Source: Pseudomonas sp. N040
GTDB lineage: Bacteria; Pseudomonadota; Gammaproteobacteria; Pseudomonadales; Pseudomonadaceae
Length of the DNA stretch: 64,000 nt
NCBI RefSeq assembly: GCF_015637705.1
Contig: NZ_JADOBE010000002.1
Span: 1-64,000 of the forward strand
Reading direction: 5' to 3'
The notes under the pieces are model-generated. The model had not been told where the DNA came from, ran no database searches, and saw only the letters and a program-made list of their open reading frames with translations. How positions within the stretch are numbered: the first letter of the stretch is position 1; each line of letters opens with the position of its first letter. Of this stretch, positions 4,882-64,000 are shown piece after piece. A program made the translations under genes and the position numbers.

Positions 4882-7290
4882 GTGGCGACGCCCCAGCCCT
4901 GCTTCCACTGCGGCCTGCCGGTTCCACCCGGCGCGCCGTTCCGCACTCTCGTGCTCGGCGAGATGCGCGAGATGTGCTGCCCCGGCTGCCAGGCCGTTGC
5001 CGAGGCCATCGTCAGTGGCGGTCTGGAAGGCTACTACCGGTACCGCAGCGAAAGTGCCGCCAATCCAGACTCGCTGACCCGTGCCCTGCCGGACGAGCTT
5101 GAGCTGCTGGATCGGCAGGACGTGCAACAACCCTTTGTCCAGCACCAGGGCGAACTGGCCGAAACCTGCCTGCTGATCGAAGGCATCAGTTGCGCCGCCT
5201 GTGGCTGGCTGATCGAGAAGCACTTGCGCAGCCTGCCGGCCGTCGCCGAGGCCAGCCTCAATCTGTCCAGCCATCGCCTGCAGGTCCGCTGGCTCGACAG
5301 CCAGCTACCACTCAGCCAGCTACTCGCCAGCCTGCGCCGGATCGGCTATGCCGCGCACCCTTACCAGGCGGATCGCGCCGCCGCGCAATTGCAGCGGGAG
5401 AACCGCCGGGCCATCCGCCAGCTGGGCGTGGCCGGCCTGCTGTGGATGCAGGTAATGATGGCCAGCATGGCCACCTGGCCAGAGTTCAACCTCGACCTGT
5501 CTGCGGAGCTCGACCAGATCCTGCGCTGGGTCAGCCTGTTCCTCACCACACCGATTGTCTTCTACTGCTGCACCGACTTCTTCAAGGGCGCATTGCGCGA
5601 CCTGCGCAGCCGCCACCTGACCATGGACGTCTCGGTGTCGCTGGCCATCGGCGGTGCCTATCTGGCCGGTATCTGGTCTACCGTCAGCCGCAGTGGCGAA
5701 CTGTATTTCGATGCGGTCGGCATGTTTGCCCTGTTCCTGCTGGCCGGCCGCTACCTGGAACGCCGGGCCCGTGAGCGCACGGCCGCTGCCACCGCGCAGC
5801 TGGTACAACTGCTGCCGGCGTCCTGCCTGCGCCTGCAGGCGGACGGGCACAGCGAACGCATCCTGCTCAGCGAACTGGCCCTGGGGGATCGGGTGCTGGT
5901 ACCGCCGGGCGCCTTGCTACCGGCCGATGGGCGGATCATCCAGGGCCAGTCGAGCATCGACGAGTCCCTGCTTACCGGCGAATACCTGCCACTGCCGCGG
6001 GCTGCCGGGGATGCCGTCACCGCCGGGACCCTGAATGTCGAGGGTCCGCTGACCGTCGAAGTCCTCGCGTTGGGCCAGGACACCCGGCTGTCCGCCATCG
6101 TGCGCCTGCTCGAGCGCGCCCAGAGCGAAAAACCCCGGCTGGCCGAGCTGGCCGATCGCGTGGCCCAGTGGTTCCTGCTGGTGGTGCTGCTCACTGCTGC
6201 GGGGGTGGGCCTGGTCTGGTGGCAGCTCGACGCCTCACGCGCCTTCTGGATCGTGCTCGCCCTGCTGGTCGCGACCTGTCCCTGCGCGCTGTCGCTGGCC
6301 ACGCCCACGGCGCTGACCACGGCCACCGGCAGCCTGCACCGCATGGGCCTGCTGCTGACCCGCGGCCACGTACTGGAAAGCCTGGGGCGGATCGACACGG
6401 TGATCTTCGACAAGACCGGTACCCTGACCGAGGGCCGTCTGACCCTGCGCGAAATCCGCCCGCTGGGTGAACTGGATGCAGACAACTGCCTGGCACTGGC
6501 CGCGGCACTGGAAAATCGCTCCGAACACCCGATCGCCAAAGCCTTCGGTCGCGCGGCGCAGGCCGCCGAGGATGTCCAGGTCACCGCGGGCAAGGGCCTG
6601 CAGGGCATGATCGGCGCACGGCTGGTGCGCATCGGCCAGCCGGACTATGTCGCGCAACTGAGCCACCAGGCGCCGCCGGTCATGCCCGCCGAGCACGGCC
6701 AGTGGCTGCTGCTCGGCGATCAGGCTGGCCCGCTGGCCTGGCTGGTGCTGGATGATCACCTGCGCGTCGATGCCCCCGCCCTGATCAATGCCTGCCACCA
6801 GCGCGGCTGGCGCACGCTGCTGCTCTCTGGCGACAGTTCGCCGATGGTCGCCGAGGTCGCCGCCCGGTTGGGCATTGCCGACGTGCGCGGCGGCCTGACG
6901 CCGGGCGACAAGCTCGAAGTCCTGCGCCAGTTGCACCAGCAGGGCCATCGGGTACTGATGCTCGGCGATGGCGTCAATGATGTGCCGGTACTGGCCGCCG
7001 CCGACATCAGCGTGGCCATGGGCAGCGCGACCGACCTGGCGAAGACCACCGCGGATGCCGTGCTGCTGTCCAACCGTCTGGACAGCCTGGTGCAGGCGTT
7101 TGTCATGGCCCGCCGCACCCGGCGCATCATCATCGAGAACCTGCTGTGGGCCACGCTGTACAATGGCCTGGTACTGCCCTTCGCCGCCATGGGCTGGGTA
7201 ACCCCGGTCTGGGCGGCGCTGGGCATGTCACTCAGTTCGCTGCTGGTGGTGCTGAACGCCCTGCGCCTGACCCGGCACCCACCGGCCTAA
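4882..7290 (+). CDS. ccoI: Copper-transporting P1B-type ATPase for cbb3 assembly
   Basis: Cu(I) ATPase of the CcoI/FixI type, which exports copper for loading of the oxidase CuB centre. A cysteine-rich N-terminus (CFHC, CCPGC) precedes a heavy-metal-associated domain with CAAC at 104-107. The membrane CPC metal site is at 466-468, the phosphorylation motif DKTGT starts at D510, and the hinge motif GDGVND is at 695-700. The start is GTG, chosen because it begins the conserved cysteine-rich segment just after ccoH. The 802-residue length is normal for the family. Confidence 0.96.
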   Translation: MATPQPCFHCGLPVPPGAPFRTLVLGEMREMCCPGCQAVAEAIVSGGLEGYYRYRSESAANPDSLTRALPDELELLDRQDVQQPFVQHQGELAETCLLIEGISCAACGWLIEKHLRSLPAVAEASLNLSSHRLQVRWLDSQLPLSQLLASLRRIGYAAHPYQADRAAAQLQRENRRAIRQLGVAGLLWMQVMMASMATWPEFNLDLSAELDQILRWVSLFLTTPIVFYCCTDFFKGALRDLRSRHLTMDVSVSLAIGGAYLAGIWSTVSRSGELYFDAVGMFALFLLAGRYLERRARERTAAATAQLVQLLPASCLRLQADGHSERILLSELALGDRVLVPPGALLPADGRIIQGQSSIDESLLTGEYLPLPRAAGDAVTAGTLNVEGPLTVEVLALGQDTRLSAIVRLLERAQSEKPRLAELADRVAQWFLLVVLLTAAGVGLVWWQLDASRAFWIVLALLVATCPCALSLATPTALTTATGSLHRMGLLLTRGHVLESLGRIDTVIFDKTGTLTEGRLTLREIRPLGELDADNCLALAAALENRSEHPIAKAFGRAAQAAEDVQVTAGKGLQGMIGARLVRIGQPDYVAQLSHQAPPVMPAEHGQWLLLGDQAGPLAWLVLDDHLRVDAPALINACHQRGWRTLLLSGDSSPMVAEVAARLGIADVRGGLTPGDKLEVLRQLHQQGHRVLMLGDGVNDVPVLAAADISVAMGSATDLAKTTADAVLLSNRLDSLVQAFVMARRTRRIIIENLLWATLYNGLVLPFAAMGWVTPVWAALGMSLSSLLVVLNALRLTRHPPA

Positions 7291-12685: not shown

Positions 12686-13714
12686 TTATTCCCGCCCTTC
12701 CACACTGCTGCCCCTTTTCCGCCATTCCTGCCGCCAGGCCGCCGGAGCCAGGCCGAACTGCGTGGTGAACCAGCGGGTGAAGGAACTGGGTACCGAATAA
12801 CCGAGTAGTTCGGCGATGCGTCCCAGCGAATAGCGCGGATTGCCCATGTAGCGCAGCACCAGGTCGCGGCGCACCTCGTTGATCAGCTCGGAAAAAGTCA
12901 CGCCTTCCTCCTCCAGCCGACGCTGCAGGGTGCGCAGGTTGATGCCCTGGGCCTGCGCCACCTGTTCGATGGTCGCGCGCCCCATCGGCAGCAGAATGTA
13001 GATCGCCTTGCGCACATCCAGCACCAGCGAATGCTCGCTGACCCCCGGCAGGGAGTCGATGAAGCGCTCGGCGTGCCGGGCCATCACCGGGTCGGCCAGC
13101 GGGTTGGGCTTGTCCAGGTCGATGGCGGAGAAAATGAAGCCATTGAACTCGCTGCCGAACTCCAGCTTGCAGCCGAACAGGCGGCGATAGTCCTGCTGGT
13201 CGGGCACCGCCTCATAGGTGAAGTTGACGCTGAGCGGATGCCAGTTCTGCCCGAGCAGGCCGCTGCACAGGCGAAACAGCGCGCCGAGGGCCAGGTCGGT
13301 GGCCTGGCGCGCCGGGATCGGACGGTCGGTGACCACTTCCTCGCGGACGATCACCGTCTTGCCGACTTCCTCGATAAACAGCGCCAGCGCCTCGTTGAGC
13401 AGATGCCGGTACTGCACGGTGGTCTGCAATGCCTCGCGCAGGGTGCGCTGATGGTTGAGCAGCAGGCTGACCGGGCCGAAATCGGCCATCTGCCGCGCCT
13501 CGGCCATGCGCAGGCCGAAGGTGCTGCAGCCGCTTTCGCGGGCCGACTCCTCGAGCAGCGTCACCGCCGTATCGGCGGCAAGCAGCTGGTCCGGGTTTTC
13601 CAGCATGGCCTGGGTCAGGCCGAGGCGGCGCAGCAGCGGTTGCGGGTTCAGCCCGACCTGCCGGGCAACCCCGAAGTACTTGGTGAGAACGGCGGCACGT
13701 ACCAGAGTCGTCAT
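12686..13714 (-). CDS. AraC-family transcriptional regulator (arabinose-binding-like N-domain)
   Basis: A 342-residue DNA-binding regulator. Residues about 20-205 resemble the Arabinose_bd sensor domain found in OruR/ArgR-like AraC proteins. Residues about 240-335 carry the double helix-turn-helix, including INLRTLQRRLEEEGVTF and IAELLGYSVPSSFTRWF. It is divergent from the first dioxygenase gene. Tandem direct repeats with a 21-bp period, which suit the two HTH units of AraC proteins, occur on both sides of it. It is therefore the best candidate regulator of the catabolic genes. The ligand is unknown. Confidence 0.93.
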   Translation of the reverse strand: MTTLVRAAVLTKYFGVARQVGLNPQPLLRRLGLTQAMLENPDQLLAADTAVTLLEESARESGCSTFGLRMAEARQMADFGPVSLLLNHQRTLREALQTTVQYRHLLNEALALFIEEVGKTVIVREEVVTDRPIPARQATDLALGALFRLCSGLLGQNWHPLSVNFTYEAVPDQQDYRRLFGCKLEFGSEFNGFIFSAIDLDKPNPLADPVMARHAERFIDSLPGVSEHSLVLDVRKAIYILLPMGRATIEQVAQAQGINLRTLQRRLEEEGVTFSELINEVRRDLVLRYMGNPRYSLGRIAELLGYSVPSSFTRWFTTQFGLAPAAWRQEWRKRGSSVEGRE

Positions 13715-13761
13715 GGTCAGCTGATCGCAAAGGCAGGGAATGGAGTTAGGCGCCGATAAAA

Positions 13762-13775
13762 CTGATCCAGATCAA
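13762..13775 (+). promoter_or_regulatory. Near-consensus Anr/FNR box in the araC-dioxygenase intergenic region
   Basis: CTGAT-CCAG-ATCAA matches nine of ten defined Anr positions. On the + strand it lies 23 nt before TATAGC (13799-13804), a possible -10, which would give a class II promoter reading towards the dioxygenase. On the - strand no good -10 is seen. This is the only oxygen-linked signal in the accessory region. Confidence 0.45.
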
Positions 13776-13811
13776 CGTTTCACCGCATGCCCGGGAAATA
13801 TAGCCAGTTTA

Positions 13812-13874
13812 GTCACGTAAAGAAAACTGACTGTCATTTATTGCGAAGTTGATCCACGCCAGCGGCCATAAATT
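13812..13874 (+). promoter_or_regulatory. Tandem 21-bp-period operator, copy D, with -10 TAAATT
   Basis: Half-sites start GTCAC at 13812 and GTCAT at 13833, a 21-bp period, with the AGAAAAC and TTGCGAAG tails shared with copies A, B and C. TAAATT at 13869-13874 lies 19 nt after the operator, as in copies B and C. It sits in the divergent region between the AraC gene and the dioxygenase start at 13972. Confidence 0.75.
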
Positions 13875-13971
13875 CACTCCAGACCCGACACGGTCCTACC
13901 GCAATGGCTCTTGGCGCCCGGCGCCCAGGATGCCCTGCAGAACACTGGCTAGCACTGAGGAAAACAACAAC

Positions 13972-14820
13972 ATGCGCGTCGAACAACTGACCTGCAGCAT
14001 CGGAGCCGAACTGAGCGGCCTCGACCTCGCCAAGGCCGTCCATGACGATGGCCTGTTCCATGAAATCAAGGCCCTGCTGCTGGAGCACAAGGTGCTGTTC
14101 CTGCGCGACCAGGACCTCTCGCGGCCGGATCACGTGGCCTTCGCTTCCCGCCTCGGCCAGCTGGAAGACCACCCGATGGCCCCCAGCCACCCGGAGGCGC
14201 CCGGTCTGGTGCAGATCTACAAGCGCCCCGATCAGCCGATCGACCGCTACGAAAACGCCTGGCACAGCGACGGCAGCTGGCGTGCAACGCCAGCCATGGG
14301 CTGCGTGCTGCGCTGCGTGGAATGCCCGCCGGTGGGCGGCGATACCATGTGGGCCAATATGGCGCTGGCCTACGAGCGCCTGCCAGAGGCAATCAAACTG
14401 CAGATCGCCGACCTGCGCGCCAACCACAGTTTCGAGTCGTCCTTCGCCGCGGCCATGCCGCTCGACAAGCGCCTGGCGATGAAGGTGCAGTACCCGGACG
14501 CCGAGCACCCGGTGGTGCGCACCCACCCGGACACCGGCGAGAAGATTCTCTACGTCAACGCCTTCACCACCCACTTCACCAACTACCACACCCCGGCGCA
14601 GGTGCGCTTCGGCCAGGACGCCAACCCCGGCGCCAACGACCTGCTGCGCTTGCTGGTCAGCCAGGCGTTCATTCCGGAGTACCAGGTGCGCTGGCGCTGG
14701 CAACCCAACAGCATGGCGATCTGGGACAACCGCAGCACCCAGCACTACGCCGTGATGGATTACCCGGCCTGCCACCGCAAGATGGAACGCGCCGCGATCA
14801 TCGGCGACCAGCCCTTCTGA
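13972..14820 (+). CDS. TauD/TfdA-family Fe(II)/2-oxoglutarate dioxygenase (copy 1)
   Basis: A predicted non-heme iron dioxygenase using 2-oxoglutarate and O2. The iron triad is H98-x-D100 (NAWHSDGSW) and H258 (TQHYAV), with arginines in HRKMER near 269-273 for 2-oxoglutarate. The 282-residue length suits the family. The start is ATG with GAGG about 13-16 nt upstream, and it aligns exactly with the paralogue at 17201. A BKACE gene follows 47 nt later, and the same pair recurs 3.2 kb downstream. The substrate is unknown; sequence alone does not tell taurine-like from carboxylate substrates. Confidence 0.92.
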   Translation: MRVEQLTCSIGAELSGLDLAKAVHDDGLFHEIKALLLEHKVLFLRDQDLSRPDHVAFASRLGQLEDHPMAPSHPEAPGLVQIYKRPDQPIDRYENAWHSDGSWRATPAMGCVLRCVECPPVGGDTMWANMALAYERLPEAIKLQIADLRANHSFESSFAAAMPLDKRLAMKVQYPDAEHPVVRTHPDTGEKILYVNAFTTHFTNYHTPAQVRFGQDANPGANDLLRLLVSQAFIPEYQVRWRWQPNSMAIWDNRSTQHYAVMDYPACHRKMERAAIIGDQPF

Positions 14821-56851: not shown

Positions 56852-57091
56852 AGGGCCTCCTGGGTTCCACAGCCTTTTAGTTGATCCAACCCGAACCAGC
56901 CAGGCAAACCGGGTTAAACCCCTCGGCAAGCTGGCGCCTACGCTAAAACAGGCAATGCGGGCCGGCTCTGTCGTGTGCACAAACGGCATTCTGTCGTAAA
57001 TCGCACATTAATAGTCTTTTTTGCCAATTCAGCCCTGGCGCAACAGCCCCTAGAGTGGCGTCATCGCCATGCACACCCCCGGAGCCCCCGC

Positions 57092-57796
57092 ATGAACGTC
57101 CTCATCGTCCACGCCCACCACGAGCCGCAATCCTTCAATGCCGCCATGAAAGACCTCGCCGTCGCCGAACTGCGCAGCCAGGGACATGCCGTGGAGGTGT
57201 CCGACCTCTACGCCATGCACTGGAACCCGGTCGCCAGCGCCGCGGATTTCGGCGTACGCCAGCAGCCGGACTATCTGGTCTACGCCCTCGAGCAACGCCA
57301 CAACCAGCAGCAACAGGCGCTGGCCGCGGATATCCGGGACGAGCTGGACAAGCTGCTGCGCGCCGACCTGGTGATCTTCAACTTCCCGGTCTACTGGTTC
57401 TCGATGCCAGCGATCATGAAAGGCTGGCTCGACCGCGTGCTGGTTTCCGGCGTTTGCTATGGCGGCAAGCGCTTCTATGACCAGGGCGGCCTGGCCGGCA
57501 AGCGGGCCATGCTGGCCATCAGCATCGGCGGGCGCCCGCACATGCTGGTCGAGGGCGGCGTGCACGGTGAACTCAACGACATGCTGCGGCCGATACTGCG
57601 CGGCACCCTGGCCTATACCGGGATGACGGTGCTGCCACCCTTCGTCGCCCACCATGTCCCGTATATCACCCATGAAGCGCGCGTGGAGCTGCTCGAACAA
57701 TACCGTCAGCGCCTGCGCACTCTGGATAGCCTGCCGCCGCTGCAGTTCGTCCGCCTCGACCAGTTCGACGCACAGCTGCATCCGCTGCCGGCCTGA
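57092..57796 (+). CDS. NAD(P)H:quinone oxidoreductase, flavodoxin fold
   Basis: A 234-residue NQO1/MdaB/KefF-like flavoprotein performing two-electron reduction of quinones. MNVLIVHAHHEPQSFNAAM binds the FMN/FAD phosphate, and FNFPVYWFSMPAIMKGWLDRV is the family signature near residues 96-118. GGAG lies before the ATG. A 240-nt gap with an AT-richer patch separates it from the divergent GlxA-type regulator. Confidence 0.93.
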   Translation: MNVLIVHAHHEPQSFNAAMKDLAVAELRSQGHAVEVSDLYAMHWNPVASAADFGVRQQPDYLVYALEQRHNQQQQALAADIRDELDKLLRADLVIFNFPVYWFSMPAIMKGWLDRVLVSGVCYGGKRFYDQGGLAGKRAMLAISIGGRPHMLVEGGVHGELNDMLRPILRGTLAYTGMTVLPPFVAHHVPYITHEARVELLEQYRQRLRTLDSLPPLQFVRLDQFDAQLHPLPA

Positions 57797-57858
57797 GCGG
57801 CGCGGCACCCCGCAGCGAGCGCCGCAGTTACAATGGCGCTTTGCCCGGAGCCCCTGCG

Positions 57859-58281
57859 ATGAGCCAAGCACCCACTTACGGCGTCGGCGACGCCTCCTAC
57901 CAGGCCGCCGGCGGCATCGACGGCCTGCGCCGGCTGGTCGATGACTTCTACCGGCTGATGGACCAACTGCCGGAGGCCGCGGCGATCCGCGCGATGCACC
58001 CGCAGAGCCTGGAACTGGCGCGCGACAAGCTGGCCTGCTTTCTCAGCGGCTGGCTCGGCGGGCCGCGCCTGTTCAGCGAGCGCTACGGCCCGATCGCCAT
58101 CCCGGCCTTCCACGCCCAGTGGCCGATCGACCAGGCACACAGCGCCGCCTGGCTGCACTGCATGGCCGGCGCCATCGCCCGGCAGGCTTACCCGGCCGAC
58201 TTTGCCGAGTACCTGCTGGCCCAGCTGCACGTGCCGGCGCAGCGCATCGTTCAGGCCAGCCGCAACCGGCATGGCGACTGA
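57859..58281 (+). CDS. Group II truncated haemoglobin
   Basis: A 140-residue 2-over-2 globin. The N-terminal GDASYQAAGGIDGLRRLVDDFY block, the FLSGWLGGP turn and the later HAQWPIDQAHSAAWLHCM helix identify group II; the histidine before AQWPI is the expected proximal heme ligand. Such proteins bind O2 or NO and often help against nitrosative or oxidative stress. It starts 62 nt after the quinone reductase and is likely co-transcribed. Confidence 0.92.
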   Translation: MSQAPTYGVGDASYQAAGGIDGLRRLVDDFYRLMDQLPEAAAIRAMHPQSLELARDKLACFLSGWLGGPRLFSERYGPIAIPAFHAQWPIDQAHSAAWLHCMAGAIARQAYPADFAEYLLAQLHVPAQRIVQASRNRHGD

Positions 58282-58315: not shown

Positions 58316-59647
58316 CTACGCCCGGGTAAACTGCACACTCACTTCAAAACCGTCTGCCCGCCCCGTTGCCGGTGAAGCCAGTGCCAGGCTGGCCCCCACA
58401 CCCCGGGCGATGGTCGCGGCGATGGCCAGGCCCAGACCTGAGCCCTCCGCCACGCTGCCACCGCGCACGAAGCGCCCGGTGAGCTGGGCCAGCACAGCCG
58501 CCGGCACCACCGGCCCGGCATTAGTGATGCGCAACAGCGCATCGGCACTCAGGGCGATTTCCACCGGCTGACTGGCAGCGCCGTGTTTCAAGGCATTTTC
58601 GATCAGGTTGCGCAGCAGGATGGCGAAGGCATCGGCATCAATGCTGGCCAGCACCGTATCGGTGGCCGGCAGTTGCAGAGCGAGCCGGGCGGCGGTGTTG
58701 CTGCGGCTCAGCTCATCGACCACATGACGGAGCAGCGGCAGCAGGTTTTGCGGGGTTTCAGGCAGCAGGCTGCCGCCTTCGGCCTTGGCCAGTTGCATCA
58801 GTTTCTCCGACAGCCTTGCCAGTTCGCGCAGGGACTTCTCGATCTGCGCCGCACGCTCGCGCAGTTTGCCCTCCGGCGCCTCGCTGTGCAGGCGCTGCAC
58901 CTGCGCCAGGGTTGCCGCCAGCGGCGTGCGCAGTTCATGGGCACTGTTGGCGGTAAAACTGCGTTCGGCATCCAGCGCCCGGCGCAAACGCTCCAGCAGG
59001 TGATTGACGGCCCTGGCCAGTGGATCGATTTCCGCCGGCAGTTGCACCGCCCGGATCGGTGACAGATCCCCTGCCCCACGCGCCTCAATGGCGCCGCGAT
59101 AGACCAGGATGCTGCGCAGGCTGAAGCGCACGAACAGCCAGCTGCCGAGCAAGCTCAGCGGGATCAGCACAAGCAGTGGCCAGAACAATGCCAGAGCAGC
59201 CTCCAGTGCTGCCTCACGGCGATGTTCGAGGCGCTCGGCAACCTCGATGAACAGCGTTTCGCGCAGGGCACTGGCGGTGTAAATACGGTGCGTGGCGGTG
59301 TCGGTGAAGCCTTCCAGCGGGAACCGATTGAAGATTGCCGGATCCGCATCGTGCGATTGCATGAGGATCTTGCCCTGCTTGTCGCGCACCAGATACGTCA
59401 GATGTTCCTTGTGCGGTTGCAGTGCGGCAATGCGCTGCGAGCGGCCATCTTCCTCGCGGTTGACGATTTCCAGCACGGCCAGCGGCAGGATGCGCTGCGC
59501 CGTTTCCTCCAGCCCGCTGTCGAACGTCTCGTTCAGCTCTTCGCGCGCGGCCAGGCTGGCGACGATGGCCGCGATGATCCACAGCAGCGCGATCCCTGCG
59601 GTGAGGCCGATGCTCAACCGCCGTTGCAAGCTGACCGCCGGCTTCAT
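58316..59647 (-). CDS. Two-component sensor histidine kinase
   Basis: A 443-residue inner-membrane kinase of the QseC/TctE type. It has two membrane segments (about 12-33 and 152-175), a periplasmic sensor of about 115 residues, a HAMP-like linker, the phospho-acceptor H237 in FTANSAHELRTPLAA, and ATPase blocks NLIENALKHG and GSGLGLAIA. ATG at 59647 overlaps the regulator stop by 4 nt, which fixes the start. The stimulus is unknown; the neighbouring redox genes suggest metal or redox stress. Confidence 0.94.
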   Translation of the reverse strand: MKPAVSLQRRLSIGLTAGIALLWIIAAIVASLAAREELNETFDSGLEETAQRILPLAVLEIVNREEDGRSQRIAALQPHKEHLTYLVRDKQGKILMQSHDADPAIFNRFPLEGFTDTATHRIYTASALRETLFIEVAERLEHRREAALEAALALFWPLLVLIPLSLLGSWLFVRFSLRSILVYRGAIEARGAGDLSPIRAVQLPAEIDPLARAVNHLLERLRRALDAERSFTANSAHELRTPLAATLAQVQRLHSEAPEGKLRERAAQIEKSLRELARLSEKLMQLAKAEGGSLLPETPQNLLPLLRHVVDELSRSNTAARLALQLPATDTVLASIDADAFAILLRNLIENALKHGAASQPVEIALSADALLRITNAGPVVPAAVLAQLTGRFVRGGSVAEGSGLGLAIAATIARGVGASLALASPATGRADGFEVSVQFTRA

Positions 59648-60303
59648 GCCGTCACCAGCCGGTAACCCATGCCGCGCACGGTTTCGATCAGCTCGTGCCC
59701 GAGTTTCTTGCGCAGGCGGCTGATGTACACCTCGATGGTGTTGCTTTCGATTTCCGCACCGAAGGCGTACAGGCAATCTTCCAGCTGTGCCTTGGACAAC
59801 AGTGCGCCGGGGCGCTGGATAAAGGCTTCGAACAACGCCCATTCGCGCGCGGTCAGGTCGACCTTCGCACCATCCCGTTCAATCGTGCGCGCGGCATTGT
59901 CGATATGCAGTGGGCCCAGCTGCAGCAGCGGGTTGGGATTGCCGCTGTAGCGCCGGGCCACGGCGGCCACCCGCGCCGACAGCTCGAACAGGTCGAAGGG
60001 CTTGACCAGGTAATCATCCGCACCGGCGTTCAGCCCGGCGATGCGGTCGGAAATCTGGTCCCGCGCGGTGAGGATGATGACCGGTGTGGCATCGCCGGCG
60101 GCGCGGCGCCGGCGCAGAAAATCGACGCCACTGCCGTCGGGCAGCATGAGGTCGAGCAGGATCAGGTCATAGCGCGTGGAGCGCAGGCTGGCTTCGGCAT
60201 GATCGAGCCGCTGCATCCAGTCCACCGCATGCCCGTCATCGGCAATCTGCTCCTGCACGGCCTGCCCCAGCGCCTGCGTGTCTTCGACCAGCAATACCCG
60301 CAT
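59644..60303 (-). CDS. OmpR-family response regulator
   Basis: A 219-residue regulator with a receiver domain (phospho-acceptor D51 in LLDLMLPDG, K in LVKPFDLFELS) and a C-terminal winged helix (about 125-215) ending in YISRLRKKLG..ETVRGMGYRL. It is related to QseB, TctD and PmrA. GAGGG precedes the ATG at 60303. It is divergent from the PepSY gene; the direct repeats at 60375 and 60784 are likely binding sites. Confidence 0.95.
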   Translation of the reverse strand: MRVLLVEDTQALGQAVQEQIADDGHAVDWMQRLDHAEASLRSTRYDLILLDLMLPDGSGVDFLRRRRAAGDATPVIILTARDQISDRIAGLNAGADDYLVKPFDLFELSARVAAVARRYSGNPNPLLQLGPLHIDNAARTIERDGAKVDLTAREWALFEAFIQRPGALLSKAQLEDCLYAFGAEIESNTIEVYISRLRKKLGHELIETVRGMGYRLVTA

Positions 60304-60374
60304 GAAACCCTCCTCGGCTAAAGGCAGCGTAGCGACTGTCGCTGACGACAAGCTTAACAGGCGCCATGTGCGTC

Positions 60375-60406
60375 TTCAGGTTGCTGTCAGCAACGGCCGC
60401 TAGGGT
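60375..60406 (+). promoter_or_regulatory. Direct-repeat operator and -10 before the PepSY gene
   Basis: TTCAG (60375-60379) and GTCAG (60386-60390) are repeated with an 11-bp period. TAGGGT (60401-60406) follows after exactly 10 nt as a -10 element. The same arrangement with the same spacing occurs at 60784. The operator replaces the -35 element, as expected for OmpR-type activation. Confidence 0.75.
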
Positions 60407-60438
60407 ATGCCACATCTGTACAGACCAGAGGAACGAAG

Positions 60439-60753
60439 ATGAACCGCCGACTCACATTCAGCCTCGCCACGCTTGGCCTGCTGCTCAGTTCAGGTGTTAT
60501 GGCCGAAGAGCATTGCACCGACCCGGTGGCCGACTGGCAGCCGCGCGAAACCCTGCGCGAGCAGGTGCGGCACTACGGCTGGGAAGTGCAGCGCATCAAG
60601 GTCGATGACGGCTGTTACGAGGTCCGCGGGATTGACCGCAAGGGCAACCGCTTCGAGGCCAAATTTGCCCCGGCGACGCTGCAGGTCCGCGCCCTGGAAG
60701 TGGAGTTCGACACAACGGCAGACACCTCTGACTACCTGCTGCAACTGCAGTAA
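60439..60753 (+). CDS. Periplasmic PepSY-domain protein
   Basis: A 104-residue exported protein. A signal peptide with cleavage after VMA (about residue 22) is followed by one PepSY domain (about 30-95) containing VRHYGWEVQRIKVDDGCYEVRG in pieces. Two cysteines (in EHCTD and DGCYE) could form a disulfide. PepSY proteins of this kind accompany redox and metal-response systems. GAGGAACGAAG before the ATG gives the ribosome site. Confidence 0.88.
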   Translation: MNRRLTFSLATLGLLLSSGVMAEEHCTDPVADWQPRETLREQVRHYGWEVQRIKVDDGCYEVRGIDRKGNRFEAKFAPATLQVRALEVEFDTTADTSDYLLQLQ

Positions 60754-60783
60754 TGCGGCGCCTGGAAAACGAATGGCCGCCCG

Positions 60784-60815
60784 TTCAGCTGGCTGTCAGC
60801 TCAGCCCGATAGGCT
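60784..60815 (+). promoter_or_regulatory. Direct-repeat operator and -10 before the DUF2271 gene
   Basis: TTCAG (60784-60788), N6, GTCAG (60795-60799), N10 and TAGGCT (60810-60815) repeat the architecture found at 60375. This gives the DUF2271-flavoreductase-ApbE genes their own promoter, probably under the same response regulator. Confidence 0.75.
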
Positions 60816-60844
60816 GACAACCATACCGATACCACCGGAGAGAC

Positions 60845-61333
60845 ATGATGAAACCTGCTCCACTGAAACAGCTCGCTGCCGCCATTTGCCTGGCCGGCGC
60901 CATTGCCCTGCCCGGACTGGCCCAAGCCCGCACGGTAACCCTGAACACCCAACTGCAAGACTACGGCGGCCGTGACGCCTACCTGGCGTTCTACCTCACC
61001 GATGCCCAGGGCCAGTACCACAGCACCCTGTGGGTCTCCGGCAAGAAGGCCAAGTACTACAAGCACCTGCGCGACTGGAAGCGCGGCAGCAGTGCTGACA
61101 GCGCGTCATTTGACGGCATCACCGGCGCCAGCGTGGGCAGCGGTGAAACCCTGACGGTCAAGGTGGAACTGGCCGATGCGTTGCTCGATGCCGGCTACGA
61201 AATCCGCGTGGACAGCGCCGTCGAGAACAAGCGTGACAACCGCGCCGATATCCAGGTGCCGCTGACCACCGCCGGCGCCGGCAAGCCATCCAGCGGCAGC
61301 GGCTACATCGAAACCTTCAGCTACGACCTGTAA
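60845..61333 (+). CDS. DUF2271 periplasmic protein, predicted flavinylated
   Basis: A 162-residue exported protein with a signal peptide ending near AQA (about residue 28) and a beta-rich DUF2271 domain. Residues 90-96 read DGITGAS, matching the D-x-x-[ST]-G-A-[ST] motif in which ApbE attaches FMN to the threonine (here T93). An apbE gene lies in the same cluster, so covalent flavinylation is predicted. The start could be the ATG at 60845 or 60848. A membrane flavoreductase gene follows 13 nt later. Confidence 0.88.
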   Translation: MMKPAPLKQLAAAICLAGAIALPGLAQARTVTLNTQLQDYGGRDAYLAFYLTDAQGQYHSTLWVSGKKAKYYKHLRDWKRGSSADSASFDGITGASVGSGETLTVKVELADALLDAGYEIRVDSAVENKRDNRADIQVPLTTAGAGKPSSGSGYIETFSYDL

Positions 61334-61346
61334 ACGGGAGAAGCCC

Positions 61347-63572
61347 ATGTTACGTCGGCTGCATTCATTGCCCGGCCTGTTCGCTGCCCTGCTGGTCATG
61401 CTGCTGGCCATCAGCGGCGCGGTTTTGTCGCTCAATCCGGCACTTGAACGCCTGGACAGCCCGGTGCCGGCTGCAGGACAGCTGAACGTCGCCGAACTGG
61501 CCGGAAGGGTCGCGCAGTTCTACCCCAATGCCGAGCAGATCCAGCGCACGCCTTCGGGTTCGGTGATCGTCTATTACAGCCAGGACGGCGACACCGGCAT
61601 TGACCGTATCGACCCGGCCAGCGGCAAAGGAATCGGCGCTTACGCCCCCTCCGAGTTTGCCGGCTGGGTCAAGGATCTGCACCGCTCCCTGCTGCTCGAC
61701 ACCACCGGGCGCGCCATCGCCGGCATTGGCGCACTGGCAATGCTGCTGCTGTCACTCAGCGGCGCGGCCATGCTGGCAAAGCGCTTGGGCGGCTGGCGGC
61801 AGTTGCTGCGCCCGCTGCGCGGCAGCTTCAACCAGCGCTGGCACGCCGAGGCCGGGCGCTTTGCCCTGTTGGGCTTGCTGCTGTCTTCCCTGACCGCGCT
61901 GTACCTGTCCGCGGCCACCTTTGGTCTGGTCAGTGATGGCACGCAAAGCGAGCCAGACTTCCCCACAGCAGTAGCCGGCGGCCGTGCCGCGCCGGTAACC
62001 AGCCTCAAGGCCCTGCAAGCGGTTGACATGAACGACCTGCGCGAGCTGGTCTACCCCAACCCGCAGGACCCGAACGATGTATTCACCCTCAGCACAGCGC
62101 AGGGCGATGGTTTTGTCGATCAGGCCAGCGGCGCGCTGTTGTCCTATCAGGCCCATGACGCCAGGCGCCGCACCTATGAATTCATCTATCAATTGCACAC
62201 CGGCGAAGGCCTCTGGTGGCTGGGACTGATCCTTGGTGCCAGCGCATTGTGCGTGCCATTAATGAGCATCAGCGGTGCAGTGATCTGGTGGCAGCGCCGT
62301 CAGGCGAAGCCGCGGATTGCCCACAACAGCCCCGCGCAGACGGCCGACACGGTGATTCTGGTCGGCAGCGAGAACAACAGCACCTGGGGCTTTGCCCGCA
62401 CGCTGCACTCCGCGCTGGTTGCAGCCGGCCAGCGCGTGCACAGCGCGCCGATGAACCAGCTGACCAGGGACTACCGCAACGCCAGACAGCTGCTGGTGCT
62501 CACCGCCACCTATGGCGATGGCGATGCGCCCGCCTCGGCCAACCAGTTCCTCGGCCTTCTGAACAAAGCGAGCCTTGACCAAAACCTGAAGTTTGCCGTG
62601 CTTGGCTTCGGCGACCGGCAATTCCCGCAGTTCTGCCAGTTTGCCCGGCACACCGAGGCCGCGTTGCTGGAACGCGGACTGACACAACTGCAGGAGCTGG
62701 ACTGCATCGACCGCCAGTCCGCACAGGAATTCGCCCGCTGGGGTAAAACCCTTGGGGCACGCCTCGGCGTTGAACTGAATTTACTGCACACGCCCCGGCA
62801 ACCCGCAACACGGCAGCTGCAATTGATCGAGCGCGTGGAATACGGCGAGCAGGCTGATGCGCTGACCTGTGTGCTGCGCTTCAAGGCCAGCCCCGCGCAC
62901 ACCGCCACTGAACGTGTGCTGCGCCGGTTTGGCAGCAGCGGCTTGCCGCGCTTCGAGGCTGGCGATCTGGTCGGCATAGTCCCGCCGGGCAGTCCGCTGC
63001 CACGCCTGTATTCACTGGCCAGCAGCCGCCGCGATGGCGTGCTGGAAATCTGCGTGCGCAAGCATGCGCAGGGCCTGTGCTCGGGCTATCTGCATGATTT
63101 ACCAGTGGGTGGCTGTATCGAAGGTTTCATTCAGCACAACCCGGACTTCCGCCCGGCCAGCGGCAAGGCGCCGGTCATCCTGATCGGCGCGGGTACCGGT
63201 ATCGGCCCGCTGGCCGGCTTTATCCGCAACAACAGCGAGCGGCAGCCAATGCACCTGTACTGGGGCGGGCGCAATCCCGACTCCGATTTCCTCTATGAGC
63301 CGGAGCTCAACGACTACCTCGCAGACCAACGCCTGACCGCACTGCAGACCGCCTTTTCCCGCGTCAACAACGGCAGCTACGTGCAGGAGCGCATCCTCGG
63401 TGATGCCCTGCAGATGCGCCGCCTGATAGAGACAGGTGCGCAGGTGCTGGTGTGCGGCAGCCGCGACATGGCCAAGAGCGTGATGCTGGCACTGGATGTG
63501 GTGCTGGCACCGATGAACCTCAGCGTAGTCACACTGAAATCCCAGGGGCGCTACCGTGAAGATGTGTATTGA
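61347..63572 (+). CDS. PepSY-membrane / flavodoxin / FAD-NAD(P)H reductase fusion
   Basis: A 741-residue inner-membrane reductase. The N-terminal PepSY-TM part has helices near 8-30, 125-145, 170-190 and 290-315. A flavodoxin domain follows (about 330-475, LVGSENNSTWGFA and TATYGDGDAP). The rest is a CysJ/cytochrome P450 reductase-like FAD/NAD(P)H unit (RLYSLASS, GAGTGIGPLAGFIR, VCGSRDMA). Electrons would pass from NADPH through FAD and FMN to the membrane and then to a periplasmic acceptor, most simply the DUF2271 protein. Confidence 0.92.
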   Translation: MLRRLHSLPGLFAALLVMLLAISGAVLSLNPALERLDSPVPAAGQLNVAELAGRVAQFYPNAEQIQRTPSGSVIVYYSQDGDTGIDRIDPASGKGIGAYAPSEFAGWVKDLHRSLLLDTTGRAIAGIGALAMLLLSLSGAAMLAKRLGGWRQLLRPLRGSFNQRWHAEAGRFALLGLLLSSLTALYLSAATFGLVSDGTQSEPDFPTAVAGGRAAPVTSLKALQAVDMNDLRELVYPNPQDPNDVFTLSTAQGDGFVDQASGALLSYQAHDARRRTYEFIYQLHTGEGLWWLGLILGASALCVPLMSISGAVIWWQRRQAKPRIAHNSPAQTADTVILVGSENNSTWGFARTLHSALVAAGQRVHSAPMNQLTRDYRNARQLLVLTATYGDGDAPASANQFLGLLNKASLDQNLKFAVLGFGDRQFPQFCQFARHTEAALLERGLTQLQELDCIDRQSAQEFARWGKTLGARLGVELNLLHTPRQPATRQLQLIERVEYGEQADALTCVLRFKASPAHTATERVLRRFGSSGLPRFEAGDLVGIVPPGSPLPRLYSLASSRRDGVLEICVRKHAQGLCSGYLHDLPVGGCIEGFIQHNPDFRPASGKAPVILIGAGTGIGPLAGFIRNNSERQPMHLYWGGRNPDSDFLYEPELNDYLADQRLTALQTAFSRVNNGSYVQERILGDALQMRRLIETGAQVLVCGSRDMAKSVMLALDVVLAPMNLSVVTLKSQGRYREDVY

Positions 63573-64000
63573 AGCGCAGACCGCAACAACCCGCGCGCTG
63601 CAGCGCTACAGCCTCAACGGGCAGACCATGGGCACGCGCTACAGCGCGGTGTTCTACGCCCGCCCGGGACTGGATCAGATCGCCATCAGCCGCAGCCTGT
63701 TTGCCGCCGTTGATGAAGTCGACCGGCAAATGTCGCCGTGGAAGCCGGACTCCGCGCTGAATCGCCTGAATGCCGCACCGCTGCAGCAATGGCTGCCTAT
63801 TCCCCGGCAACTGCTGCAGGTGCTGCAGTGTGCGCTGCAGGTCAGCCGGCTCTCGGGTGGGACCTTCGATATAGGAGTTGGCGATCTGGTGAATGCCTGG
63901 GGCTTTGGTGCCGAGCGCAGTCAGCCGGATCCCGCACGGATTGACCAGTTGCACACCCAGCCACGGCAACTGGCGGCCGATGTACTGCAGCTCGACATCG
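63556..64000 (+). CDS. apbE: FAD:protein FMN transferase ApbE, 3' truncated by window
   Basis: The first roughly 148 residues of ApbE, which transfers FMN from FAD to threonine or serine of target proteins. GQTMGTRYS, DRQMSPWKPDSALNRLN and SGGTFDIGVGDLVNAWGFG are diagnostic. GTG at 63556 overlaps the reductase gene by 17 nt and has AGGGG at the right distance; ATG at 63562 is an alternative. There is no clear signal peptide at this start. Its place beside the DGITGAS-bearing protein gives it a clear target. Confidence 0.92.
   Translation, partial: MKMCIEAQTATTRALQRYSLNGQTMGTRYSAVFYARPGLDQIAISRSLFAAVDEVDRQMSPWKPDSALNRLNAAPLQQWLPIPRQLLQVLQCALQVSRLSGGTFDIGVGDLVNAWGFGAERSQPDPARIDQLHTQPRQLAADVLQLDI

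Follow-up and report, generated by a model that had tools for sequence, protein, structure and literature searches.

Electron relays that carry flavins outside the cytosol are widespread, and the triggers and acceptors of most of them are unknown. One large class, the PepSY-like flavinylation systems of Meheust et al. (2021), is reported to comprise 3220 clusters, with 1077 genes carrying an NAD-binding domain and 167 clusters with VIT1, and its authors propose iron reduction as the function (PMC8238504). The preliminary description of the DNA treated here held that most such relays have no assigned function, which passes over that proposal. We analyse a gene set at the end of a stretch from Pseudomonas sp. 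N040, hereafter the window, which takes up positions 1 to 64,000 of a contig of 557,751 bases (NZ_JADOBE010000002.1) in a genome of 3.67 Mb that is 99.85% complete. The gene set is a PepSY-like flavinylation system of the Meheust type, hence of a kind already known. What sets it apart from the kind described in 2021 is an apparently dedicated two-component control, with a conserved operator, and an ApbE flavin transferase that seems to lack a leader. The preliminary description had not mentioned the operators, an internal site before the DUF2271 gene, the absent ApbE leader and a gene for a P1B-5-type ATPase with a hemerythrin domain after apbE.

Like the systems of 2021, the window has a PepSY_TM protein, an ApbE and a DUF2271 protein with an [S/T]GA[S/T] motif; the ApbE and DUF2271 genes both adjoin that of the PepSY_TM protein, inside the five-gene range used for the class, and DUF2271 begins with a hydrophobic leader. 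Unlike them, it has its own two-component pair and operator, a PepSY_2 protein and a leaderless ApbE, and shows no DUF4198 among the proteins scanned. Neither "histidine kinase" nor "response regulator" is a term used in the main text of PMC8238504, and a limited literature search turned up no account of two-component control over a DUF2271/PepSY relay. The genes span 58316-64536; apbE crosses the window edge and its end is taken from the contig. All six genes lie where the preliminary description had put them, and each product has its Pfam match (histidine kinase, response regulator, PepSY_2, DUF2271, reductase and ApbE, in this order from 58316). The first two are on the minus strand, divergent from the PepSY_2-DUF2271-reductase-apbE operon, whose presumed flavin mononucleotide (FMN) carrier is DUF2271:

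58316-59647, minus: sensor histidine kinase with 2CSK_N, HAMP, HisKA (with SAHELRTP) and HATPase_c domains (Pfam; 15-member alignment)
59644-60306, minus: response regulator of OmpR/PmrA type, overlapping the kinase start (Pfam)
60326-60331, minus: -10-like TACGCT, 10 nt past the regulator-facing operator (spacing rule)
60342-60357, minus: predicted regulator-facing operator TTAAGCTTGTCGTCAG, one mismatch to TTCAG-N6-GTCAG
60375-60390, plus: predicted operon-facing operator TTCAGGTTGCTGTCAG
60401-60406, plus: -10-like TAGGGT, 10 nt past the operon-facing operator (spacing rule)
60439-60753, plus: PepSY_2 protein, small, exported, 104 residues (Pfam E 1.5e-26; hydrophobic leader)
60784-60799, plus: predicted internal operator TTCAGCTGGCTGTCAG before DUF2271, found at the same place in several Pseudomonas loci
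60810-60815, plus: -10-like TAGGCT, 10 nt past the internal operator (spacing rule)
60845-61333, plus: DUF2271 protein with a Sec-type leader, presumed periplasmic FMN carrier (Pfam E 7.4e-35; model mean predicted local distance difference test, pLDDT, 79)
61121-61123, plus: codon of T93 in DGITGAS, predicted flavinylation site (motif conservation)
61347-63572, plus: PepSY_TM/Flavodoxin_1/NAD_binding_1 transmembrane reductase, 741 residues (PepSY_TM E 5.2e-42)
63556-64536 (the window stops at 64000), plus: ApbE flavin transferase, GTG start (Pfam E 5.5e-77)

The start of apbE overlaps the reductase stop by 17 bases (63556-63572). An envelope two-component system that controls a transmembrane electron relay has a precedent in HprSR-MsrPQ of E. 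coli; unlike that system, the locus shows no MsrP- or MsrQ-family domain among the nine locus proteins scanned.

The gene set, the motif, the conserved histidines and the operators with their spacing can be read from the DNA; from these we infer the signal, activation by phosphorylation, heme and FMN occupancy, the direction of electron flow, the acceptor and the place of FMN attachment. An envelope signal would act on the 2CSK_N sensor kinase, and the phosphorylated OmpR-type regulator would bind TTCAG-N6-GTCAG repeats standing in for the -35 box. It would thereby activate its own genes, the PepSY_2-DUF2271-reductase-apbE operon and, from the internal site, DUF2271 a second time. The reductase would take two electrons from cytosolic NADPH (reduced nicotinamide adenine dinucleotide phosphate), first onto flavin adenine dinucleotide (FAD) and then onto the flavodoxin FMN, and would send them singly by way of two b-type hemes in the FoxB-like PepSY_TM domain to FMN bound covalently at T93 of exported DUF2271. 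From there they would pass to an oxidised periplasmic acceptor, and the likeliest candidate would be an oxidised metal, Fe(III) or other, that is reduced on the outer side of the inner membrane. On the whole we consider this mechanism probable, from the sensor-switched operon to a periplasmic, likely metal, acceptor.

A contig scan with the reductase yields 41 loci. Close relatives, at 53-72% identity, number 34 (L030-L063) and are distributed over Pseudomonas, Burkholderiales, other Gammaproteobacteria and Alphaproteobacteria. The others, L064-L070, were dropped, with only 29-45% identity over part of the reductase. Of the 34 loci and the window taken together, 33 have DUF2271, 32 have ApbE and 29 have the kinase/regulator genes; L051 and L055, cut by contig ends, are left out of neighbourhood counts, and several loci are near-identical (e.g. 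L033/L056 and L030/L031/L038), so that the counts are not independent. In the window DUF2271 comes before the reductase, as it does in 32 of the 34 loci of this first set (the other two being cut by contig ends) and in all 15 loci of a second set. The response regulator, 69-85% identical to that of the window, is among the best conserved members; kinase orthologues beside the same operon show 51-72% identity. At E 1e-100 or better the reductase occurs in 9 of 59 genomes of the window's genus, its own included, and at 46-51% identity in 7 of 25 genomes of a sister genus. The module is patchy yet widely spread. Profile and model alignments comprise 22 (A1, A2), 15 (A3) and 21 (A4) of up to 35 sequences. 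Outside the module, most of the recurrent flank clusters are antisense frames or reflect local synteny among a few Pseudomonas; VIT1 is the only annotated one.

Two-component control, at first inferred from adjacency, now has the support of a conserved operator. The divergent intergenic region contains a conserved direct repeat, TTCAG-N6-GTCAG, with a period of 11. Its strict form (TTCAGSBBRNYGTCAG, counted in either orientation upstream of PepSY_2 or DUF2271) is present in 27 of the 29 loci with the pair, the misses being L034 and L035, versus none of the four without it (L032, L041, L060 and L040, the last with only about 400 bases upstream). The second set, fetched after the pattern had been fixed, gives 6/6 versus 0/9. 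Both sets combined, the figures are 33/35 versus 0/13 (Fisher p 5e-10; the loci are related). At exactly 10 nt downstream, 51 of the 67 unique sites have the sequence YANNNT (TANNNT in 34), versus at most 6 of 67 at other offsets from 4 to 16, and each of the three window operators has a -10-like hexamer at this distance. Judged by sequence, a repeat with a fixed -10 has the arrangement of a promoter in which an activator site stands where the -35 would be. An 11-bp period is also found in the repeats used by BqsR and PmrA. Since the operator is conserved where the pair is present and missing where it is not, the case for two-component control goes beyond adjacency, and activation by the linked pair appears highly probable.

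The strict pattern has 34 matches in 12 genomes versus 6 for a reversed-pattern control; 19 of the 34 are in the locus and 15 elsewhere, and the genome of L041, which lacks the pair, has none. A wide regulon was considered and rejected: 11 of the 15 off-locus sites were read, of which 10 lie inside predicted reading frames and one (L086) is unclear. No convincing further target was found among the off-locus sites read, and therefore the pair seems, on this pattern, dedicated to the flavin-relay locus. With a sensor of its own, an operator and apparently a single target locus, the inducer of one promoter should reveal what the system is for.

Mere relocation of the pair in nine pair-less genomes was likewise rejected, the best kinase matches having 29-33% identity in seven and none reaching E 1e-30 in the other two. 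Relic-like repeats are seen by eye in two pair-less loci, L041 and L123. In L123 about 16 regulator codons are left beside a MerR-like gene (by eye), DUF2271, reductase and apbE are kept, and the repeats are near the pattern. Another repeat of 11-bp period, CTGAAG-N5-CTGAAG or close to it, stands upstream of DUF2271 in the pair-less loci L129-L135; it is exact at the locus in five of eight genomes, and one genome has a further copy before a cytochrome b561-like gene (by eye; L145).

The preliminary description had read the reductase as a PepSY membrane domain joined to flavodoxin and a CysJ-like NADPH reductase, and its domains, structural matches and profile match all agree with this. The PepSY_TM domain covers residues 3-317 (E 5.2e-42) and is the sole PF03929 match in the genome. 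A 21-sequence profile of the N-terminal 320 residues finds a single match in the PDB, FoxB (7abw, E 5.8e-9). Histidine occupies H6 in 33 of 35 sequences, H112 and H166 in 34 each and H284 in all 35, the remainder being gaps; H6, H112 and H284 align with FoxB histidines, while H166 was paired by eye, the printed alignment being a few residues off. FoxB is reported to contain two hemes, each held by two histidines (PMC11334425, PMC13038864). The four conserved histidines of the FoxB-like domain are likely heme ligands, and the PepSY_TM domain probably carries two hemes. Among known systems the PepSY_TM heme reductases, FoxB and its relatives HiuB and CrpH, stand closest to this half, FoxB by the profile match. 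In contrast to FoxB and its relatives, the membrane domain of the window protein continues into a diflavin NADPH reductase and has a presumed flavin carrier as its partner, and no Fur box was found at its locus.

The other half has the flavodoxin and FAD/NADPH domains of CysJ and of NADPH-cytochrome P450 reductase (CPR). In VIA comparisons it matches CPR, sulfite reductase flavoprotein (SiR-FP) and neuronal nitric oxide synthase (nNOS) reductase, with Z 27.6-30.5 among the matches listed, mostly over residues 328-741. Examples are 3qe2_A (Z 30.1, root-mean-square deviation, rmsd, 6.3 over 384 residues) and 1f20 (Z 30.5, rmsd 1.9 over 245 residues). The FMN-domain plus FAD/NADPH-domain fold of a diflavin NADPH reductase (CPR/CysJ) is present in the model (mean pLDDT 80.8, predicted TM-score, pTM, 0.54), and FoxB is not among the structure matches listed for it, which are filled by the reductase half. 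Unlike CysJ, the protein is fused to a membrane cytochrome-type domain, and it scores 160 bits against an NCBIfam cysJ cut-off of 668. We hold the relay architecture to be very probable. It might also be that the PepSY_TM protein is itself a metal or ferrisiderophore reductase like FoxB, with DUF2271 assisting it and not serving as the exit for electrons: ferrisiderophore reduction is reported or proposed for FoxB and HiuB, and the published description of the hiuABC operon includes no DUF2271 (PMC13001220, PMC13038864). The position of DUF2271 before the reductase in 32/34 and 15/15 loci and its invariant [S/T]GAS speak against this, and we regard it as very unlikely.

In the window's DUF2271 the heptapeptide DGITGAS occupies residues 90-96 with its threonine at 93, and it fits the flavinylation consensus as first noted. 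The preliminary description had made its proposal depend on conservation of this motif in apbE-linked homologues, and [S/T]GAS is found in all 33 aligned module DUF2271s and, with the 15 further loci, in 48 of 48. Elsewhere, [S/T]GA[S/T] occurs in 22 of 24 other DUF2271s of the order, and such a string is contained in 8 of 50 reductase frames. The two same-order DUF2271s without it, L007 and L013, are possibly not flavinylated. The DUF2271 protein of Amantichitinum ursilacus is reported to be flavinylated upon co-expression with its ApbE and to lose this when the corresponding threonine is changed (PMC8238504). It is quite probable, by motif, that T93 of the window's protein carries FMN.

Leaders were scored by a hydropathy scan with a self-chosen cut-off of 1.9, not with a trained predictor. 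By this measure 44 of 48 DUF2271 leaders lie above the cut and the other four, at 1.68-1.88, are signal-like by eye; none of the 48 is twin-arginine-like. DUF2271 thus looks Sec-exported. A fold assignment for its model was tried and rejected: the best VIA match, the C2 domain 3w56 (Z 8.0, rmsd 2.7 over 94 residues), is in the range common to beta-sandwiches, and Foldseek gives no match at E 0.001 or better.

As to the acceptor, 11 of the 15 Pseudomonas loci in the first set have a VIT1 gene (E 2.1e-67) after apbE, with a gap of 42-83 bases in the nine measured, and so do 4 of the 15 second-set loci. In the window's own genome the next gene, about 160 bases after apbE on the same strand (contig 64699-66984), is that of a heavy-metal P-type ATPase whose C-terminal domain is a hemerythrin and which has TPC and QEVID motifs, by which we take it to be of the P1B-5 type. 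VIT1 and P1B-5 proteins are mostly exporters, and the metal link may for this reason concern tolerance rather than supply. Some P1B-5 ATPases are reported to carry a hemerythrin domain (PMC9388753), and insertions in PepSY/DUF2271 genes of Caulobacter are reported to lower fitness under ethylenediaminetetraacetic acid (PMC12004947). The genome has one FTR1-family protein. In L044 a gene for a ferric-reductase-like FAD protein (5635-6987) lies between regulator and PepSY_2, with operator copies nearby. A metal acceptor is a tentative assignment, just short of probable. L030, L053 and L062 have weaker P-type ATPase matches (26-35%) some 1.8-4.6 kb past apbE, and in L040 (3-335) the end of a ZIP-like metal transporter, recognised by eye from its translation, is just upstream of PepSY_2.

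A number of observations count against the mechanism as set out. A hydrophobic leader is missing from all 47 module ApbEs (the highest of 42 scores is 1.66; five were judged by eye), and L042 and L044 have no apbE next to the relay. Confidence is low for the membrane half of the reductase model. In 10 of 33 loci no PepSY_2 was found in the 1.5 kb upstream of DUF2271. The operator evidence rests on related genomes; within Burkholderiales alone the operator count is 3/5 versus 0/4 (p 0.17), and a looser pattern in the window's own genome gives 9 matches versus 8 for the reversed control (two in the locus, four in genes, one over a gene end, L075, and two intergenic, L078 and L079). The window's neighbour after apbE is the P1B-5-type ATPase, not VIT1. 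Concerning iron, the own genome has no FeoB_C and no VIT1 match, a partner for Fe(II) import not being evident, and no Fur box was found at the locus. Fur control was rejected for this locus: the best matches to a 19-mer consensus in the two intergenic regions score 10/19 and 9/19, values that 231 and 280 of 500 mononucleotide shuffles also attain.

The last of these points would suit the same relay with a non-metal acceptor, the electrons serving to restore periplasmic components that have been oxidised (methionine sulfoxide, disulfides, quinones or a reactive species), as in HprSR-MsrPQ of E. coli. A dedicated envelope two-component system without a Fur box, the missing FeoB_C match and the absence of a TonB receptor or DUF4198 among the nine locus proteins scanned all favour this. 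So do the Ferric_reduct gene of L044, whose family includes MsrQ, and two genes of L061, one for cytochrome b561 and one with Oxidored_molyb/Mo-co_dimer domains. The recurrence of VIT1 downstream, and the presence there of the P1B-5-type ATPase in the own genome, point the other way, and we consider a non-metal acceptor unlikely. In L061, an alphaproteobacterial copy, the cytochrome b561 gene (6544-7071) is in the operon after PepSY_2, and the Oxidored_molyb/Mo-co_dimer gene (12948-14207) is about 1.8 kb past apbE.

The preliminary description placed ApbE beside the relay. The gene is indeed there, but its simple action in the periplasm sits uneasily with the lack of an export signal in 47 of 47. 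The same test is positive in the own genome for the nqr-linked ApbE (2.13), DUF2271 (2.46) and PepSY_2 (2.07). That other ApbE, the only further match in this genome, is encoded in an nqr-type operon (L004:3766-8109) and has a lipobox-like leader. Because the module ApbE is leaderless while DUF2271 looks exported, their pairing is unexplained, and simple periplasmic flavinylation by the module ApbE is, as far as leaders can be read, in tension with it; this raises the question of where FMN is attached. In a contrast attempt, 1 of 24 short order-level DUF2271 loci had a scorable ApbE start, which also looks leaderless, and the absence may extend beyond this module.

Cytosolic ApbEs are known, and in Klebsiella a leaderless one is reported to be required for a soluble cytoplasmic target (PMC12052999). 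The module ApbE resembles this type in having no export signal by hydropathy, and differs in that the linked motif protein, DUF2271, looks exported. Hence the module ApbE might not act in the periplasm at all: either it attaches FMN in the cytosol, ahead of export by Sec, or the exported, lipoprotein-like nqr-linked ApbE performs the periplasmic step while the module ApbE serves a cytosolic target, as its Klebsiella counterpart does. The contrast between the leaderless module ApbEs and the positive scores just given is in line with this, as is the lack of twin-arginine-like leaders on DUF2271. Still, the conserved linkage and the overlap with the reductase gene suggest DUF2271 as the target, and the catalytic region of the module ApbE is well kept, its residues retained. 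Moreover, the test is one of hydropathy only, by which four of 48 DUF2271 leaders themselves fall just under the cut-off. An ApbE acting outside the periplasm is a serious possibility, though a doubtful one. Attachment of FMN before export, taken by itself, seems rather unlikely. Also improbable, and slightly more so, is the full version of this idea, a single-operon envelope response switched by the two-component pair in which the leaderless ApbE would put FMN on the DUF2271 precursor while this is still in the cytosol and not yet exported by Sec, giving a Fur-independent periplasmic reducing line on demand. If true, covalent flavin loading would precede translocation and no secretion of FAD would be required.

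In Vibrio cholerae DbfQ, a small exported PepSY protein, is reported to interact with and regulate the kinase DbfS, and PepSY proteins are reported near two-component systems more than 60 times above expectation (PMC12714742). The window shares with the DbfQRS and BqsRS modules described there a small exported PepSY protein beside kinase and regulator, a likeness seen in adjacency alone, and by analogy PepSY_2 could regulate the adjoining kinase as DbfQ does DbfS. Unlike in those modules, the output is an electron relay and PepSY_2 is not always present. It is also kept in four loci without the kinase pair, which counts against a strict sensor role. In L057 it lies beyond the two-component pair.

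On the kinase side, a truncated hemoglobin gene (window 57841-58281) ends about 35 bases from the end of the kinase gene and is adjoined by a gene for a Flavodoxin_2 (KefF/KefG-like) NAD(P)H oxidoreductase (window 56975-57796). The pair-less relative L128 encodes a truncated hemoglobin of 69% identity some 1.5 kb past its apbE.

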